Part shown: positions 22,588-31,741 of the stretch, piece by piece
Layout of the letters: the number at the start of each line of letters is the position of its first letter
Numbering within the stretch: position 1 is the first letter of the stretch
DNA from: an uncultured Pelagibacteraceae bacterium
GTDB lineage: Bacteria > Pseudomonadota > Alphaproteobacteria > Pelagibacterales > Pelagibacteraceae
DNA length: 32,795 bases
Assembly: GCA_902564245.1 (NCBI GenBank)
Contig: CACFAF010000011.1
Location: forward strand, 1 to 32,795
Direction of reading: 5' to 3'
Translations under genes and position numbers: made by a program
The notes under the pieces: generated by a model
What the model saw: only the letters and a program-made list of their open reading frames with translations
Databases searched by the model: none
Told to the model about the DNA's origin: nothing

Positions 22588-23322
22588 ATGCCTCTAAAAA
22601 CAACAATAAACTACTCACCTAATTTTAATATTAAAAAAAGAAAGAAAAACAGCGTAAGATTCTTAATATTTCATTACACTGGCATGAGAAATGAAAAAGA
22701 TGCAATCGATAGATTAACAAATATACAATCTGAGGTTAGTACTCATTATTTTATTTCTAAAAAAGGAAGAATCATAACAATGGTACCAGATTTATATATT
22801 GCTTGGCATGCAGGGATTTCTGCATGGAAATCATATAAGTTGCTAAATTCTAATTCAATTGGAATTGAAATTTCCAATCCTGGTCATGAATTTGGTTATA
22901 AAAAATTTTCAAAAAAACAAATTAATTCCCTAGTTAAATTATGTAGATTTTTAATTAAAAAATATAAAATTAAAAAAGAAAATATTTTAGGTCACTCAGA
23001 TATTGCCCCAAAGCGGAAAAAGGACCCAGGTGAAAAATTTCCATGGAAATTTTTAGCTTCAAAAAAAATTAGTATTTGGCACGGATTAAGTAATAAGAAG
23101 TTAAAAAAAGTAAGAAATATGAGATGCTCAAAAAATTCAGAAAAAGAATTTTTAAAAAATCTTCAAAAATTTGGATATTCGATTAATTCTGCAGTTAAGA
23201 TAAAAAAGTCTACATCTACAAAATTTATAATAAAGGCTTTTCAACGTAGGTTCAGACCTGAGCTGATAAATGGAATAATTGATGAAGAATGCTTACAAAT
23301 AAGTAAAATAATAGTTAAATAA
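22588..23322 (+). CDS. N-acetylmuramoyl-L-alanine amidase (amidase_2/AmpD-type)
   Basis: Zinc amidase that separates the stem peptide from N-acetylmuramic acid in peptidoglycan turnover or recycling. Zinc ligands are H29 in LIFHYTGM, H136 in ILGHSDIAP and D146 in KKDPGEKFPW; E94 in IGIEISNPG and the lysine run at 143-145 lie in the active-site pattern of the AmpD/AmiD family. The C-terminal part (about 180-240: NLQKFGYSI...FIIKAFQRRFRPELINGIID) resembles a peptidoglycan-binding domain of the PGBD1 type, which points to AmiD rather than AmpD. No signal peptide or lipobox is visible, which would place it in the cytoplasm. It lies directly upstream of rnpB and the division cluster. Confidence 0.88.
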   Translation: MPLKTTINYSPNFNIKKRKKNSVRFLIFHYTGMRNEKDAIDRLTNIQSEVSTHYFISKKGRIITMVPDLYIAWHAGISAWKSYKLLNSNSIGIEISNPGHEFGYKKFSKKQINSLVKLCRFLIKKYKIKKENILGHSDIAPKRKKDPGEKFPWKFLASKKISIWHGLSNKKLKKVRNMRCSKNSEKEFLKNLQKFGYSINSAVKIKKSTSTKFIIKAFQRRFRPELINGIIDEECLQISKIIVK

Positions 23323-23331
23323 TATTTTCTC

Positions 23332-23359
23332 TTGAAAATTTCAGATTTAGTTATAAATT
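23332..23359 (+). promoter_or_regulatory. Candidate promoter for rnpB
   Basis: TTGAAA at 23332-23337 (five of six consensus) and TAAATT at 23354-23359 (four of six) are 16 bases apart and would start transcription close to the first base of the P1 helix at 23366. The gene needs its own or read-through transcription from the amidase gene 10 bases upstream of this site. Confidence 0.4.
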
Positions 23360-23365
23360 ATATTT

Positions 23366-23726
23366 GCCAGATAAAAGACTTATCGCTTTAATTAATTTTA
23401 AAGAGGAAAGTCCGGGCTCTACAAAGACACAGTGCCAGGTAATGCCTGGCGGGGGAAACCCTAGGGATAGTGCCACAGAAAATATACCGCCTTATCAAGG
23501 CAAGGGTGAAAAGGTGTGGTAAGAGCACACCGGCTATATTGGTAACAATTAGCGCATGGAAAACCCCACTGGGAGCAAGACTGAGTAGAGATGACATTGT
23601 TGTAAAACTAAAAGCAGTCTTTGGCTAGTCATCTGGGTTAGTTGCTTGAGCTTAAGAGCGATCTTAAGCCTAGAGAAATGGTAAGTTTAAATGACAGAAC
23701 CCGGCTTATATTTTATCTGGCTAACC
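23366..23726 (+). ncRNA. rnpB: RNase P RNA, bacterial class A
   Basis: Catalytic RNA that matures tRNA 5' ends. An 11-base P1 helix closes the molecule (GCCAGATAAAA at 23366 with TTTTATCTGGC at 23711). Conserved blocks are in order: GAGGAAAGTCCGGGCT from 23403, ACAGAAA with the GGCAAGGGTGAAA region, GGTAAGAGCACACCGG near 23519, the CCACTGGGAGCAAG block near 23566, GTTGCTTGAGC near 23641, and AGAGAAATGGTAAG followed by GACAGAACCCGGCTTAT near 23693. Length of about 361 bases suits the A type. The L15 loop reads GGAAAACCCC where E. coli has GGTAAA. The 3' end was set just after P1 and is approximate. A minus-strand open frame across it is an artefact. Confidence 0.97.
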
Positions 23727-23867
23727 TTTCAGAAACTATAGTTTAGAAATCTTCCTCAAAATTAATATAAAAAATATAATTTATTAGTTTTTATTATTTA
23801 ATAGAAATTATGAAATCTTTTTTAAAGTTGGGCCTAAAATCTCATTAAAATCATATAAAATCAGTAA

Positions 23868-23896
23868 TTGACTATATAATTAAAAACCCATAATAT
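23868..23896 (+). promoter_or_regulatory. Candidate sigma-70 promoter of the mraZ division cluster
   Basis: TTGACT (23868-23873) and TAATAT (23891-23896) are separated by exactly 17 bases; the -35 matches five of six consensus positions and the -10 four. A perfect TATAAT also occurs at 23875-23880 but without a good -35. Transcription would begin near 23903, about 36 bases before the mraZ ATG, inside the repeat array. Confidence 0.5.
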
Positions 23897-23910
23897 CCCA
23901 TATATTCCCA
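23887..23910 (-). promoter_or_regulatory. Triple direct repeat resembling MraZ binding boxes
   Basis: CCCA occurs at 23887-23890, 23897-23900 and 23907-23910 with exact 10-base periodicity. On the minus strand this is TGGG(N) repeated three times with 5-base spacers, the pattern described for MraZ sites upstream of mraZ in E. coli (TGGGN repeats, 5-nt spacing). The array overlaps the candidate -10 and start point and lies 28 bases before the mraZ ATG, a position suited to autorepression. The orientation relative to mraZ is inferred only from this sequence. Confidence 0.62.
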
Positions 23911-23938
23911 AATAAGGAATTTATGAAATGTAAAAATT

Positions 23939-24403
23939 ATGTTTTTATCTACTTACGAGAACAAAATAGACAAAAAAGGAAGGGTGTCAGTGCCAGCTAG
24001 TTTTAGATCATATATTTCTAATCTAGGTTATAATGGTATCATCTGTTATCCCTCATTTAATAATCAATGCATTGAAGCATGTTCTCAAGATAGAATTGAA
24101 AAACTTTCAAATAGTATAGACTCACTAAATCCATTTGAAGAAAAAAGGGACTTTTTTGCAACATCAATTTTATCAGAAAGTTCAAATTTACAATTTGATA
24201 GTGAAGGTAGAATTTCACTTACAGAAAAATTATTAAAACATGCAAAAATAAAAAATAGCATGTTTTTTGTTGGGCAGGGAAAAACATTTCAAATCTGGGA
24301 GCCAACAATATTTGAAAAATTTAGGGTTAAAGCTAGAAAAAAATCAAACATATATCGAGCTAGCCTTAAATGGGAAAAACAATTTAATAATGAGGGGAAA
24401 TAA
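23939..24403 (+). CDS. mraZ: MraZ transcriptional regulator of the division/cell-wall cluster
   Basis: Ring-forming DNA-binding protein with two SpoVT/AbrB-like swapped-hairpin domains that represses its own dcw operon in characterised bacteria. The first repeat has YENKIDKKGRVSVPASFR (6-23), the second LQFDSEGRISLTEKLLKHAKI (about 81-101) followed by MFFVGQGKTFQIWEP. At 154 residues it is of standard length. It is the first gene after the repeat array noted upstream and shares one base with ftsZ (TAATG at 24401-24405), so the two are probably translationally coupled. Confidence 0.94.
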   Translation: MFLSTYENKIDKKGRVSVPASFRSYISNLGYNGIICYPSFNNQCIEACSQDRIEKLSNSIDSLNPFEEKRDFFATSILSESSNLQFDSEGRISLTEKLLKHAKIKNSMFFVGQGKTFQIWEPTIFEKFRVKARKKSNIYRASLKWEKQFNNEGK

Positions 24404-25866
24404 TGATTAACTTTAAAGCACCAGAAATAAAAGAATTACAACCAAGATTATTAGTATTAGGAGTTGGAGGAGCTGGAGGAAATGCAATAAATGAAATGAT
24501 TGAAAATGGACTACAGGGAGTTGAGTTTATTGCAGTCAATACAGACGCACAAGATTTAAAACATAGTAAGGCTAAGGCAAAAATTCAAATAGGAACAAAT
24601 GTAACAAAAGGTTTGGGAGCGGGAGCAAAAATTGATATTGGACAGGCTTCTGCAGACGAGTCATTAAATGAAATCATAAATTGTTTACAGGGTGCAAATA
24701 TGGTTTTTATAGCTGCTGGAATGGGTGGTGGAACTGGAACAGGAGCAGCACATGTAATCGCAAGAGCGGCTAAAGAATTAAACATATTAACTGTGGGGGT
24801 TGTTACACTTCCTTTTTTATATGAGGGACCCTCAAGAATGAGAAGAGCTCAACAAGGTTTAGAGGAATTAAGAAAACATGTTGATACTATAATTGTAATA
24901 CCTAATCAAAATTTATTTAAAATAGCTAATGAACAGACTACTTTTAAAGAGTCATTTAATCTTTCAAATAATGTTTTGATGCATGGAGTTCAAAGCGTAA
25001 CTGATTTAATGGTTAGACCAGGAATTATTAATTTAGATTTTGCTGATGTTGAAACAGTAATGGCTTCAATGGGCAAAGCCATGATGGGAACTGGCGAAGC
25101 AGAGGGAGAAGGAAGAGCAATGAAAGCTGCTGAGATGGCTATTAGCAATCCTTTAATTGATGATTATACTCTTAAGGGTGCAAAGGGTTTATTGGTAAAT
25201 ATTACTGGAGGCGAAGATCTAAAACTTTTTGAAGTTGATGAAGTTGTAAATAAAATAAGAGCAGAAGTTGATGTAGAAGCTGAAGTTATAATTGGAGCAA
25301 TAACAGATACTTCACTTGAAGGCAGAATAAGAGTTTCAATAGTAGCAACTGCTTTAGATGGACAACAACCTGAGTCAAAATCTGTAATTAATATGGTTCA
25401 TAGAATACAAAATAGAAATCCAGGTTATTCAGATTTTTCTAATACAGGAAATGCTCAAGCATTTAATTTTTCAAATTCAGTTTCTAGTTCTGCAATTAGT
25501 GGAGCAAATGCTTTAAAGCTTGAAAATGAAGTATTAACAGAAAATAGTCCCGAAGTATCTTCATCTGAAATAATGAATGAAGGCAATGAAACAAATCAAG
25601 AATTAGAAGTAGAAAATGTTTTAGAGGATAGTTCATTGAATGTAGAAGAAGAGTCTTTTACTAAAGAAGCTCTAAGTGATTTAGATGAAAATAAAGAACC
25701 TTCTAATGGTCTAGAAAATTTTGGTTTTGAGGAAGAGACACCAGAATTATTTAACAATGAAGAAGAAAGTACAATTAAGGAATTATCCGAAGCAGAAAAT
25801 GATGAGAACAGCTCTGATGATGATGATTTAGAAATTCCAGCATTTTTAAGAAGGCAAAAAAATTAA
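24403..25866 (+). CDS. ftsZ: Cell division protein FtsZ
   Basis: Tubulin-like GTPase that forms the division ring. The GTPase domain begins with VLGVGGAGGNAINEM (18-32), the tubulin signature GGGTGTG is at 108-114, and the catalytic T7 loop is in NLDFADVETVM around 205-215. After about residue 320 a long, glutamate- and asparagine-rich disordered linker runs to the conserved C-terminal peptide EIPAFLRRQ (477-485), which binds FtsA/ZipA-type anchors. At 487 residues it is longer than E. coli FtsZ (383) because of the linker. It overlaps mraZ by one base and ends in another TAATG at 25864-25868. Its place between mraZ and rsmH, with no ftsQ or ftsA beside it, is unusual. Confidence 0.98.
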   Translation: MINFKAPEIKELQPRLLVLGVGGAGGNAINEMIENGLQGVEFIAVNTDAQDLKHSKAKAKIQIGTNVTKGLGAGAKIDIGQASADESLNEIINCLQGANMVFIAAGMGGGTGTGAAHVIARAAKELNILTVGVVTLPFLYEGPSRMRRAQQGLEELRKHVDTIIVIPNQNLFKIANEQTTFKESFNLSNNVLMHGVQSVTDLMVRPGIINLDFADVETVMASMGKAMMGTGEAEGEGRAMKAAEMAISNPLIDDYTLKGAKGLLVNITGGEDLKLFEVDEVVNKIRAEVDVEAEVIIGAITDTSLEGRIRVSIVATALDGQQPESKSVINMVHRIQNRNPGYSDFSNTGNAQAFNFSNSVSSSAISGANALKLENEVLTENSPEVSSSEIMNEGNETNQELEVENVLEDSSLNVEEESFTKEALSDLDENKEPSNGLENFGFEEETPELFNNEEESTIKELSEAENDENSSDDDDLEIPAFLRRQKN

Positions 25867-25940
25867 TGGTCTTCGAAAAAATAAATGATAGCCACCATAA
25901 TATCGGAAAAAAAAAAACACTTTCCGGTATTGCTAAATGA
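25866..25940 (+). other. Alternative 24-codon rsmH leader frame ending after an A11 run
   Basis: ATG at 25866 overlaps the ftsZ stop (TAATG) and opens a short frame, [17 protein letters not shown], that crosses eleven consecutive A residues at 25907-25917 and stops at 25938. In the +0 frame it ends, but a one-base contraction of the run would fuse it to the rsmH frame at HFPVLLNE. It may be the real rsmH N-terminus affected by a sequencing or natural indel, a slippage site, or a coincidental open frame. Confidence 0.4.
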
Positions 25941-26895
25941 AATAATTAGCATTATTACCCCTCAATATGGTGGCACATTTATTGATTGTACATTTGGTCA
26001 AGGTGGATATTCAGAAAAAATATTAACTTTTCCTAATACAAATATTATCGCAATAGACAGAGATAAAGATGTATTTGAAAAAGCATTACAAGTTGAAAAA
26101 AAATTTAAAGATAGATTTATTTTCAAGAATATTAAATTCAGTCAAATTCAAAATTTGAAGTTAAAGAATGAGAATATTAAAGGTGTTATTTTTGATCTAG
26201 GATATTCTTTTAATCAAATTAAAAACCCAAAAAAAGGGCTGTCATTTGAAAGTACTGGAAATCTAAATATGAGGTTAGGGATAAATGAATTTTCAGCTAA
26301 AGAAACTATTAATAAATTAAGTCAAAGTGAATTAGAAAAAATATTTAAGTATTTTGGTGATGAGAAAGACAGTAAAAGAATTTCCCATAGAATTATTAAA
26401 GAGAGAAAAAAAAAAGAAATAAATACTGAGGATTTAGTTAAGATTATTGAATTATCAAAAAAAAAAAAAAATTACAAAATTCATAGTGCAACTAAAGTTT
26501 TTCAAGCACTTAGGATTTTTGTTAATAAAGAAATTAGTGAATTAATTCATGGCCTTATTTGTGCAACTAAATTAGTTAATAAAGATGGTCTAATTGTTGT
26601 TGTAACTTTTCATTCAATAGAAGACAAAATTGTAAAATACTTTTTTAAAAGTTTATCTGAAGCTAAAAGTATTTCAAGATATGAACCAAAAAAGGGAGAA
26701 AATATTAATTTGTTAAAATTAATTCAAAAAAAACCTATAGTACCTTCACAAGAGGAGATCAAAATAAATCCTCCTTCAAGATCAGCTAAATTAAGATTTG
26801 CAATTAAGAAAGAAAATTTTTTTGATTTTAAAACTGATATCTTAGAAAAATTTAAAAATCTAATAGATATTGAAAATTACTCTAATAAGTTATGA
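25885..26895 (+). CDS. rsmH: 16S rRNA (cytosine-1402-N4) methyltransferase
   Basis: MraW/RsmH methylates N4 of C1402 in the ribosomal P site. The 336-residue frame has [10 protein letters not shown], then the SAM motif [23 protein letters not shown], the [22 protein letters not shown] block (the usual LGVSS region reads LGYSF), LNMRLG, then [15 protein letters not shown] and [16 protein letters not shown] near the C-terminus. The start is doubtful. ATG at 25885 gives [19 protein letters not shown], but ATG at 25866 sits in a TAATG overlap with the ftsZ stop, as at the mraZ/ftsZ junction, and reads in another frame into an 11-A run; removal of one A would join it to HFPVLLNE. It overlaps ftsL by four bases (ATGA). 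Confidence 0.93.
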
Positions 26896-28894: not shown

Positions 28895-31741
28895 ATGCGA
28901 ATAGGTAATTATTTTAAAAATATTAATTCGAAATATAAGAATCACTTATTTTCAGGCTTAAGTTTTAACAGTTCAGATTGTAAAAAAGATTATATTTTTT
29001 TTGCTATTAAAGGCAATAATCATGATGGCAATAAGTTTATTGAACATGCAATTAAAAAAGGTGCCAAAACAATCGTATCTAATAAAAAATATGAAGGAAT
29101 TAAAAATCAAGTTCTCTTTATAAAGTCAATAAATACAAGAAAAACACTAGCTGAGGTTTCATCTAAAGTTTATGAAAAAAAACCAAAAAACTTGATAGCA
29201 GTTACAGGGACTAATGGAAAATCTTCAATAGCTAATTTTTATTTCCAAATATTAAAATTAAAGAAAAAAAATGTTGCATCGATTGGAACTTTAGGAATTC
29301 ATAAAATTTCAAAAAAAATTGAATTACAAAATACAACTTTAGATCCAATACAATTAGGAAAATGCCTGATAAAGTTAAAAAAGGAAAAAATTGATAATGT
29401 AATATTAGAGGCATCTAGTCATGGTTTAAAACAAAAGAGATTAGATGGTTTGAAGTTTAAAATAGGAATTTTTACAAATTTATCTCATGATCATCTTGAT
29501 TATCATAAATCTTTTAAAGATTATTTAGATTCTAAACTATACTTATTTAAAAAATTACTTATGAAAAATTCAAGTATTGTTACAGACTTAGATATTCCTG
29601 AGTATAAGAAAATTAAATCTATAGCAAGAAAACGAAAAATAAAGTTAAATACTATATCTAATAAATATGGAGATTTATCGATCATTTCTCATAAATATTT
29701 TGGCGAAAAGCAATCTTTAAAAATAAAATATAAAAAAAAGATTTATACCTTTCAAGTAAGCTTGATTGGTAAAATTCAATTAAAGAACCTCTTAATGTCA
29801 ATGATTGCAGCAAACATGAGTAATATTGATTTTAAAAGTATTATAAGTGTTATTAAAAAAATAAAACCAGTATCCGGAAGATTAGAAAAAATTGGTTTTA
29901 TAAAAAATAATTCTTCAGTAATTTTAGACTATGCTCATACTCCAGATGCTCTACGTATTTGTCTACAAAATATAAAAGATCAATTCAAAAATAGAAAAGT
30001 ATCAATTGTCTTTGGATGTGGTGGAAATAGAGATCAATTTAAAAGATCATTAATGGGACGGATAGCTAATGATTACTGTGATAAAATTTATTTAACTGAT
30101 GATAATCCTAGAAAAGAAAATCCAAAGAAAATTAGACAAAATATAAAAAAAAAAATAGATAATTCAAAATTATATGAGATTCCAAACAGAGAAAAGGCTA
30201 TTAATCTGGCAATACAAAATCTTTTATCAGGTGAAATCTTAGTTGTAGCAGGAAAAGGTCATGAGAAAATTCAAGACTATGGAAGTTATAAAAAAATTTT
30301 TTCAGATAAAGATTGTATAATCAAATATGTTAAGAAAAAAAACAAACTTTTAAAAAATGATCTAAAATTTAATATAATTAAAGAAGCGATTAGAAATAAT
30401 AATCTTTCTTCAAATACAAAAATTAGAAAGGCGTCAATAAATTCTAAAAATATTAGAAAGAATGATATTTTTTTTGCTATTAAAGGAAAAAAAAATGATG
30501 GAAATAAATTTACAAATGAGGCTTTAAATAAGGGTGCAAGTTTAGCTATTGTAAGTAAAATTTACGATTTAAAGAAAAAAAATAAAAAAATTATAGTAAA
30601 AAATACTTTAGACTTTTTAACAAAAACCTCAGAAATTATTAGAACAAATTCATCTTCTAAAATCATCGCCATAACTGGAAGCTGTGGAAAAACATCTTTA
30701 AAGGAATTACTAAAAGAGACTCTTAGTCAATTTGGAAAAGTAAATTCCTCTCCAAAATCCTTTAATAATAAATACGGAGTTCCATTAAGTCTTTTTAACA
30801 TGAATTTTGATCATGATTACGGAATATTTGAAGTTGGCATGGATAAAAAGGGTGAGATAGATTATTTATCAAAAATTATAAAACCTGACATTGGTGTAAT
30901 TACTAATATTTCCTATGCTCATGCAAAAAATTTTAAGAATATTAAACAAATCGCAATGGCAAAAGCTGAGATAATTAATAATATCAATGAAGGTGGCACA
31001 ATTATATTAAATTCTGATGACCATTTTTTTAATTTGCATAAAAAAATTTCTATTCGAAAAAAGTTAAAAGTTTATACTTTTGGTATCAATAAAAAAGCTC
31101 ATATTAAATTAAAATTTATTAAAAAAGAAAAAAATAAATTTAAAGTTCATATAATGATAAATAATAAAAAGAAATATTTTTATATTTCGAATAATTTTGA
31201 AAATTATATCAAAAATATACTTGGCGTGATTGCTATAATTTCAGTTTTTAAAGATCCCTTAAAACTAGACAAAAATATTTTTTATAAATTTAGAGTGCCA
31301 GAAGGAAGAGGAGATATTACTAAAATAAAGTTTAAACAGAAAAAAATCAATCTTATCGATGAAAGTTATAATTCAAATCCACTATCTCTTAAATCAGCTA
31401 TTGAAAATTTTAATTCTATAAAAACGAAAAATAAAAAATATATGATACTAGGTGATATGCTAGAGCTTGGTAAACATTCTAAGAACTTACATAGAAAGAT
31501 ATCTCCAATCATTAATTCAACACAAATTGATAAGATCAATATATTTGGCAATCATATAAAGGAAACCTTTAAAAACATTAAACCTATAAAAAAAGGTTTA
31601 ATTTTAAAAGAAAGTTCACAAATAATTGATTTGATTAAAAACAAATTAAATAATAATGATTACTTAATGATCAAAGGATCAAATTCTACTGGACTGAATA
31701 AATTTACTAATCAATTAAAAAAAATGCAAAATGCTTTATAG
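28895..31741 (+). CDS. murE/murF: MurE-MurF fusion: UDP-MurNAc-tripeptide synthetase and tripeptide:D-Ala-D-Ala ligase
   Basis: One 948-residue polypeptide holding two successive Mur ligases that add the third residue and the D-Ala-D-Ala dipeptide to UDP-MurNAc-peptide in the cytoplasm. The MurE half (about 1-480) has GTNGKS (105-110), EASSHGL, NLSHDHLDYH with K214 as the probable carbamylated lysine, DYAHTPDAL and D403-N-P-R406, the motif linked to meso-diaminopimelate selection, then AGKGHE. The MurF half (about 490-948) has SFNNKYGVP, GSCGKTS (595-601), EVGMDKKGEID, DESYNSNP and MILGDMLELG. The two N-terminal domains are visibly alike (IFFAIKGNNHDGNKF at 34, IFFAIKGKKNDGNKF at 525). No stop or frameshift separates the halves. 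It overlaps mraY by 11 bases. Confidence 0.95.
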   Translation: MRIGNYFKNINSKYKNHLFSGLSFNSSDCKKDYIFFAIKGNNHDGNKFIEHAIKKGAKTIVSNKKYEGIKNQVLFIKSINTRKTLAEVSSKVYEKKPKNLIAVTGTNGKSSIANFYFQILKLKKKNVASIGTLGIHKISKKIELQNTTLDPIQLGKCLIKLKKEKIDNVILEASSHGLKQKRLDGLKFKIGIFTNLSHDHLDYHKSFKDYLDSKLYLFKKLLMKNSSIVTDLDIPEYKKIKSIARKRKIKLNTISNKYGDLSIISHKYFGEKQSLKIKYKKKIYTFQVSLIGKIQLKNLLMSMIAANMSNIDFKSIISVIKKIKPVSGRLEKIGFIKNNSSVILDYAHTPDALRICLQNIKDQFKNRKVSIVFGCGGNRDQFKRSLMGRIANDYCDKIYLTDDNPRKENPKKIRQNIKKKIDNSKLYEIPNREKAINLAIQNLLSGEILVVAGKGHEKIQDYGSYKKIFSDKDCIIKYVKKKNKLLKNDLKFNIIKEAIRNNNLSSNTKIRKASINSKNIRKNDIFFAIKGKKNDGNKFTNEALNKGASLAIVSKIYDLKKKNKKIIVKNTLDFLTKTSEIIRTNSSSKIIAITGSCGKTSLKELLKETLSQFGKVNSSPKSFNNKYGVPLSLFNMNFDHDYGIFEVGMDKKGEIDYLSKIIKPDIGVITNISYAHAKNFKNIKQIAMAKAEIINNINEGGTIILNSDDHFFNLHKKISIRKKLKVYTFGINKKAHIKLKFIKKEKNKFKVHIMINNKKKYFYISNNFENYIKNILGVIAIISVFKDPLKLDKNIFYKFRVPEGRGDITKIKFKQKKINLIDESYNSNPLSLKSAIENFNSIKTKNKKYMILGDMLELGKHSKNLHRKISPIINSTQIDKINIFGNHIKETFKNIKPIKKGLILKESSQIIDLIKNKLNNNDYLMIKGSNSTGLNKFTNQLKKMQNAL

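Follow-up and report, generated by a model that had tools for sequence, protein, structure and literature searches.

Results and discussion

Gene order, loci compared and identity of MraZ

The window, that is, the whole 32,795-base stretch of DNA analysed here, carries the RNase P RNA gene rnpB upstream of a cluster with the order mraZ, ftsZ, rsmH, an ORF without a Pfam match, a transpeptidase and a double Mur ligase as assigned by Pfam (Table 1). The transpeptidase is ftsI by position. A single 948-aa ORF (28895-31741) contains two sets of Mur ligase domains (Pfam) and is apparently a fused Mur ligase pair, MurE-MurF by position. By sequence the window belongs to SAR11, among the relatives of Pelagibacter; the closest named relatives of the encoded MraZ are records of Pelagibacteraceae, Candidatus Pelagibacter and other Pelagibacterales (among the best 80 of 516 matches). 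The source genome draft is 1.02 Mb and 86.8% complete, and its one match to PF00091 is ftsZ. The corresponding rnpB-mraZ intergenic stretch of Pelagibacter HTCC1062 appears in a list in PMC2704228.

Table 1. Positions in the window of the genes and sequence features around mraZ.
Feature	Position	Strand	Evidence
rnpB, RNase P RNA gene, upstream neighbour	23367..23724	+	Rfam RF00010, 294 bits
-35 hexamer TTGACT	23868..23873	+	106/108 loci have TTGAC at 17 nt upstream of the -10
MraZ box 1 (predicted), TGGG on minus strand	23887..23890	-	Invariant in 108/108 Pelagibacter loci; ACCA in 15/40 of second set
-10 hexamer TAATAT, occupying the gap between boxes 1 and 2	23891..23896	+	TAnnnT in 108/108
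MraZ box 2 (predicted)	23897..23900	-	Invariant in 108/108 and 40/40
MraZ box 3 (predicted), in or beside the inferred transcript start	23907..23910	-	Invariant in 108/108 and 40/40
Shine-Dalgarno-like AAGGA of leader ORF	23914..23918	+	Duplex -5.3 kcal/mol for the 23923 start, versus +0.4 for the mraZ ATG
Leader ORF (candidate), 25 codons and a stop, +2 frame relative to mraZ, which it overlaps	23923..24000	+	Frame openness
mraZ	23939..24403	+	PF02381, 70.5 bits; best E-value of the model against MraZ structures, 1.1e-11
Shine-Dalgarno-like run inside mraZ before codon 18	23975..23984	+	-8.3 kcal/mol in the window
GTG codon 18 of mraZ, candidate second start	23990..23992	+	GTG in 148/148
ftsZ, one-base overlap with the mraZ stop	24403..25866	+	PF00091, PF12327
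rsmH (mraW)	25885..26895	+	PF01795

Three sets of loci from the order and one from the wider class were compared with the window. The 108 Pelagibacter loci combine 28 from a same-genus genome search (a match in 28 of 37 genomes, the source genome included) with the best 80 of 516 contig matches; the two lists may share genomes and the contig list is biased to close relatives, and 101 of the 108 upstream sequences are distinct. The second set consists of 40 hand-chosen loci, 39 of them from 12 further genera of the family together with the divergent Pelagibacter locus L217, and a sister family (f2) supplied 18 loci. The class sample comprises 48 loci outside the family, taken from the 100 alphaproteobacterial genomes with a match (114 searched).

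MraZ proteins carry a DXXXR motif in each half. The encoded protein matches PF02381 in two stretches, and D11/R15 and D87/R91 are invariant in 27 aligned MraZ proteins. Its AlphaFold model (pLDDT 88.2) was used in a Foldseek search whose 16 best PDB matches were all MraZ (E-values up to 8e-8), including 9r4j and 9sz7, which by title are 2026 cryo-EM structures of Mycoplasma genitalium MraZ on its promoter. By profile, by both DXXXR loops and by the fold of this model, the gene is mraZ.

Of the 166 loci of the order, 164 (108/108 Pelagibacter, 40/40 second set and 16/18 sister family) have ftsZ as the gene after mraZ, on the same strand and with gaps of -1 to 174 nt, and the two loci where it is not seen (L029, L031) end within 50 nt. 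Among the class loci with long flanks, ftsZ follows mraZ in 1 of 29, rsmH does so in 27 of 29, and neither does in one. The single class locus outside the order with ftsZ near mraZ is L146.

A phased CCCA array over the mraZ promoter

The first-pass annotation had described three CCCA words in exact 10-nt phase, overlapping a promoter of the form TTGACT-17-TAATAT, and had taken them for MraZ sites. Our sequence check places the words at 23887, 23897 and 23907 in that phase, reading on the minus strand as TGGGA-5-TGGGA-5-TGGGT, and the pattern CCCA N6 CCCA N6 CCCA occurs once in the window (23887-23910). That such an arrangement is improbable by chance was likewise borne out, since none of 100 dinucleotide-preserving shuffles of the window contained it. 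The promoter hexamers are present as described (23868-23896), but the bare consensus match is no better than chance (six matches in 23300-24450 compared with 6.0 +- 2.6 in shuffles), so the promoter call rests on conservation.

This conservation is strict. All 108 Pelagibacter loci have three CCCA in exact phase, with the twelve box positions invariant, and all 108 have a TAnnnT hexamer between boxes 1 and 2. TTGAC stands 17 nt from the -10 in 106 of them and 16 nt in one. In the remaining locus, L047, the spacer is just 8 nt, unique among the 108, which may reflect a deletion or an assembly error. The alignment of upstream DNA from relatives that had been proposed as a check thus shows the boxes and their phase unchanged while most of the promoter spacer drifts: columns -14 to -5 hold 0.1-0.9 bits over the 108 loci, although some spacer positions are conserved too, as are the four bases directly before box 1, mostly A. 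In the second set, 25 of 40 loci have three CCCA and 15 have ACCA followed by two CCCA, and in the sister family at least three CCCA occur in 18/18 loci, with up to five counted by eye.

In the 1.02-Mb draft genome there are six exact matches to CCCAN6CCCA. Two of these lie within the mraZ array, which is the only three-box site, and the other four sit inside long open frames, the coding placement of the fourth (on the minus strand) being judged from its central position in its locus. For exact two-box sites in this 87% complete genome a wider MraZ regulon is therefore unsupported, and, judged from the distribution of sites, the regulon seems to consist of a single operon. The same has been reported for M. 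genitalium, where the sole chromosomal copy of the Mollicutes motif is at the mraZ promoter (PMC8475190).

Distribution of the array and comparison with known MraZ sites

Within 300 nt upstream of mraZ, at least two phased CCCA are found in 43 of the 48 class loci and at least three in 31, compared with two phased TGGG in 2/48 and three in 0/48 on the opposite strand, the control here being the other strand rather than composition-matched shuffles. In many class loci a box also overlaps the TTGAC (by eye). The array is therefore a widespread alphaproteobacterial element, and as far as sequence comparison goes the operator is ordinary for Alphaproteobacteria, with an orientation unlike that of E. 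coli. The first-pass reading of the repeats as an MraZ operator accordingly keeps its core (the conservation, the identity of mraZ and the position of ftsZ), whereas the idea of a relic special to this genome does not stand, since the element is common in the class.

The likeness to the E. coli sites that had been drawn also holds in part. MraZ sites in E. coli follow a rule of TGGGN repeats with 5-nt spacers, which agrees with the E. coli sequence: the operator at Pmra, the subject of a 2014 study by Eraso and colleagues, likewise has three TGGG in 10-nt phase before mraZ. The word and the phase are thus shared; the E. coli boxes, however, follow the -10 and lie on the coding strand, whereas those of SAR11 occupy the opposite strand on either side of the -10, and the gene after mraZ is rsmH in E. 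coli and ftsZ in the SAR11 window. Coding-strand boxes downstream of the -10 are therefore not what the window has, and that placement is not defining across bacteria. Direct repeats also precede mraZ in Burkholderia cenocepacia, as 7 nt with a 3-nt spacer, but there are four of them and they lie downstream of the -10 (PMC7761207). Mollicutes have direct repeats before mraZ as well, although the word is AAAGTG[T/G], and the M. genitalium cluster likewise contains mraZ and ftsZ (PMC8475190).

Conservation shows selection on the box DNA and therefore does not reveal which protein binds it. That the boxes and the -10 keep one fixed register in 108/108 Pelagibacter loci would also be expected if a different regulator bound the array, or if CCCA were merely part of the promoter. 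We regard such an explanation as very improbable: phased CCCA stand before mraZ across the class (43/48 loci), and the same TGGG word in 10-nt phase precedes mraZ in E. coli, where MraZ is reported to bind the repeats upstream of the operon (cited in PMC8475190 and PMC7761207). The phased repeats are thus predicted, with high confidence, to be an autogenous MraZ operator.

At such an operator, neighbouring subunits of an oligomeric MraZ would each occupy one TGGG box, with a helical turn from box to box, and since the -10 fills the gap between boxes 1 and 2, binding of MraZ there and of RNA polymerase would be mutually exclusive. Bound MraZ would then turn down mraZ, ftsZ and the genes beyond in a negative feedback loop, with mraZ and ftsZ presumably on one transcript. 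Details of the repression may differ from E. coli because orientation and placement differ. Given the predicted MraZ autoregulation and the adjacency of the two genes in 164/166 loci, ftsZ is probably under MraZ as well, so that autoregulation would also set ftsZ transcription here. In M. genitalium, loss of mraZ led to higher mraW and ftsZ transcripts (PMC8475190).

Among the matches listed in a full-text search covering few subscription papers, none dealt with SAR11 MraZ boxes or with the overlapping ORF described below; PMC9275681 and PMC11387232 touch on mraZ only briefly. SAR11 cells rank with the most abundant in the sea, and they retain few regulators. A strictly kept predicted operator before mraZ-ftsZ suggests that direct feedback on a division protein is among the circuits that streamlining has spared. 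The first-pass observation is correct and its reading sound, but the predicted operator is ordinary, and the part of the locus worth following is a second reading frame across the start of mraZ together with a fixed GTG at codon 18.

A second reading frame kept open across the start of mraZ

Every one of the 108 Pelagibacter loci has, between box 3 and the mraZ ATG, an ATG that is out of frame with mraZ and always in the +2 frame. It stands at -7 in 86 loci, at -16 in 11 more and only at -25 in the last 11. The frame that it opens (25 aa in the window) overlaps the first 20-22 mraZ codons across the family, and its first stop falls at mraZ codon 20 or 22 in all 148 loci but one, L018, which has it at codon 14. 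The +2 frame is hence open through mraZ codon 19 in 147/148 loci (107/108 and 40/40), whereas redrawing synonymous codons from the remainder of mraZ would leave it open in about 0.7 (0.5 of 108 and 0.17 of 40 loci). An equally long +2 run elsewhere in mraZ is found at 6 of 540 and 5 of 200 starting points in the two sets, and in the sister family the frame is open through codon 19 in 0/18 loci.

Synonymous codons show how the frame is maintained. The +2 frame stays open only if codons 6, 8 and 11 have C as their third base, and in the family with the leader ORF 426 of the 433 Tyr, Asn and Asp codons at positions 6-11 end in C, compared with 597 of 2567 in codons 25-145. Codon bias at gene starts was considered as the source of this excess and rejected: the sister family has a nearly identical protein motif, yet there the count in codons 6-11 is 28/54. 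Among 14 representatives less than 80% identical, all retain AAC8 and GAC11, a C-ending codon 6, GTG18 and the stop. Judged by these codon patterns, the leader +2 frame is kept open by selection, and we read it as a predicted translated leader ORF.

Ribosome-binding potential gives a mixed picture and in part speaks against a translated leader ORF, with the pairing energies computed using a general 16S tail rather than that of the source genome. The best leader start beats the mraZ ATG in anti-Shine-Dalgarno pairing in only 52/108 Pelagibacter loci, but in 35/40 of the second set. When scores also take the start codon into account, the leader frame holds the best start in 98/108 and 33/40 loci, the mraZ frame has it in 10/108 and 6/40, and the third frame in 1/40; the ten Pelagibacter loci with a best start in the mraZ frame all come from the group with the ATG only at -25. 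The start of the ORF in several other genera lies 37 to 70 nt upstream, in many cases right after box 3 and with a GGAGG-type site. In locus L191 no start codon is found in the leader frame; a run of A8, compared with A7 in L189, breaks the frame there and may be a sequencing error or a slippage site. Within the leader ORF of loci L197-L200, long runs of T give way to runs of A, and these are possible slippage sites.

A leader hairpin pairing the CCC of box 3 with a downstream GG run (23904-23920) was also considered and is not claimed. Its mean stem score was 5.43 in 86 distinct Pelagibacter arm-leader combinations, compared with 4.71 +- 0.12 when tails were re-dealt, but over 47 representatives of both sets the signal is weak (4.83 compared with 4.50 +- 0.18; 38 of 1000 shuffles reach it). 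The window leader folds worse than its shuffles (z +2.14), and part of the pairing signal would follow from the placement of a Shine-Dalgarno sequence after a CCC box.

The frame might instead serve the protein sequence that it encodes. It is open in all 13 genera sampled, with predicted peptides of about 16 to 45 residues, as a small protein of importance in itself would require, but residues vary widely beyond those dictated by mraZ (by eye), and the sole third base of the overlap that is fully fixed and that stop avoidance leaves unexplained is the G of GTG18. We therefore consider such a small protein unlikely.

Slightly less probable still is programmed +1 frameshifting, in which ribosomes from the leader ORF would shift into mraZ and produce an N-terminally extended MraZ. 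The better ribosome site of the leader ORF in 35/40 second-set loci would suit it, as would the sister family, where in 18/18 loci the upstream start with the best score shares the mraZ frame, so that a similar layout would give an extended MraZ; an ancestral extended MraZ is therefore possible, and it keeps this explanation alive. A shift at the mraZ start, however, gives no reason to hold the +2 frame free of stops through codon 19 (147/148 loci), the mraZ ATG never varies among the 148 loci though a shift would not need it, and the leader ATG lies only 7 nt upstream in 86/108 Pelagibacter loci, so frameshifting would add little to MraZ there. The upstream start of the sister family (L029-L046), about 40 nt before mraZ and TTG in 17/18, would add a hydrophobic N-terminal stretch, part of which resembles the leader ORF of L197-L200 (by eye).

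Short ORFs before a regulated gene have been described elsewhere. In Rhodobacter sphaeroides, also an alphaproteobacterium, a short ORF lies in the mraZ 5' leader, but that ORF shares sequence with a terminator, within a leader of 268 nt, and is described as confined to R. sphaeroides species (PMC5089854), whereas the SAR11 leader ORF overlaps the mraZ coding start and is family-wide. The translationally coupled upstream ORF of iraD similarly ties a short ORF to translation of the next gene (PMC5574718); unlike ORFs of that type, the SAR11 ORF crosses the main start out of frame and ends near a candidate internal start, to which it may be coupled.

GTG codon 18 as a candidate second start of mraZ

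Val18 of mraZ is encoded by GTG in 148/148 loci of the two sets, compared with 37 G-ending Val codons among 537 in mraZ codons 25-145 and with a G-ending Val at codon 18 in 2/18 loci of the sister family. Speaking against a feature unique to the family, GTG at this codon also occurs in 15 of the 48 class loci, some of them A+T-rich, and in E. coli. The stretch before codon 18 pairs with the anti-Shine-Dalgarno sequence beyond synonymous expectation in Pelagibacter (-8.34 compared with -5.97 +- 0.15 in simulations) and in the second set (-7.72 compared with -5.79 +- 0.20), and is unremarkable in the sister family (-5.26 compared with -5.19 +- 0.18). In the window the run scores -8.3, close to ftsZ (-8.5), with the mraZ ATG at +0.4 and most other scored starts near 0 (exceptions, -5.6 and -2.2). 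The stop of the leader ORF begins 6 or 12 nt past GTG18. In the 11 loci without a stop at codon 22, which include close relatives and amount by our guess to about six independent cases, a stop at codon 20 is found in 11/11, compared with 45/148 overall.

The fixed GTG18, the Shine-Dalgarno-like run and the stop position fit termination-reinitiation at GTG18. A second mraZ start at this codon, with coupling to the leader ORF and a short MraZ as its presumed consequences, is accordingly put forward tentatively, at somewhat less than an even chance. By the structural model, a protein begun at GTG18 would be without the strands at residues 5-9 and 15-17 and without the D11/R15 loop.

The leader ORF could also act as a brake only, its ribosomes occluding the mraZ ATG and keeping MraZ low, with codon 18 and the run before it incidental. 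The mraZ ATG of the window is almost without a Shine-Dalgarno sequence (+0.4 kcal/mol), and codon 16 is often GTG too (72/148), so that G-ending Val may be favoured for other reasons. By itself, however, a brake leaves GTG18 in 148/148 unexplained, together with a Shine-Dalgarno-like run that exceeds synonymous expectation only in the family with the leader ORF and the codon-20 stop in 11/11 loci that lack the codon-22 stop. We judge this simpler explanation rather unlikely, although it is a more serious contender than either a functional peptide or frameshifting.

On our reading the leader ORF would be translated and would tune mraZ, perhaps via coupled initiation at GTG18. A full two-start arrangement of mraZ is a little more doubtful than the second start itself. 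In it, leader ribosomes would cross the mraZ ATG out of frame, stop no more than 14 nt past GTG18 and restart via the internal Shine-Dalgarno-like run. Initiation at the first ATG would give the full repressor, whereas the form begun at GTG18, without the first two strands and the D11/R15 loop, could dilute or poison the full-length ring. The relay would at the same time keep ribosomes flowing to ftsZ, so that how strongly ftsZ is repressed would be governed by the translation state of the cell. The overlapping ORF thus points to a possible second layer of control, packed in coding sequence and visible via synonymous codons.

The usually conserved Gly14 of the first DxKGR loop is replaced in four of the 40 second-set loci, from two genera, by M, W, W and R in L189, L191, L192 and L201, respectively. 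In the three loci with W, W and R the change reads as GGAGG before GTG18.
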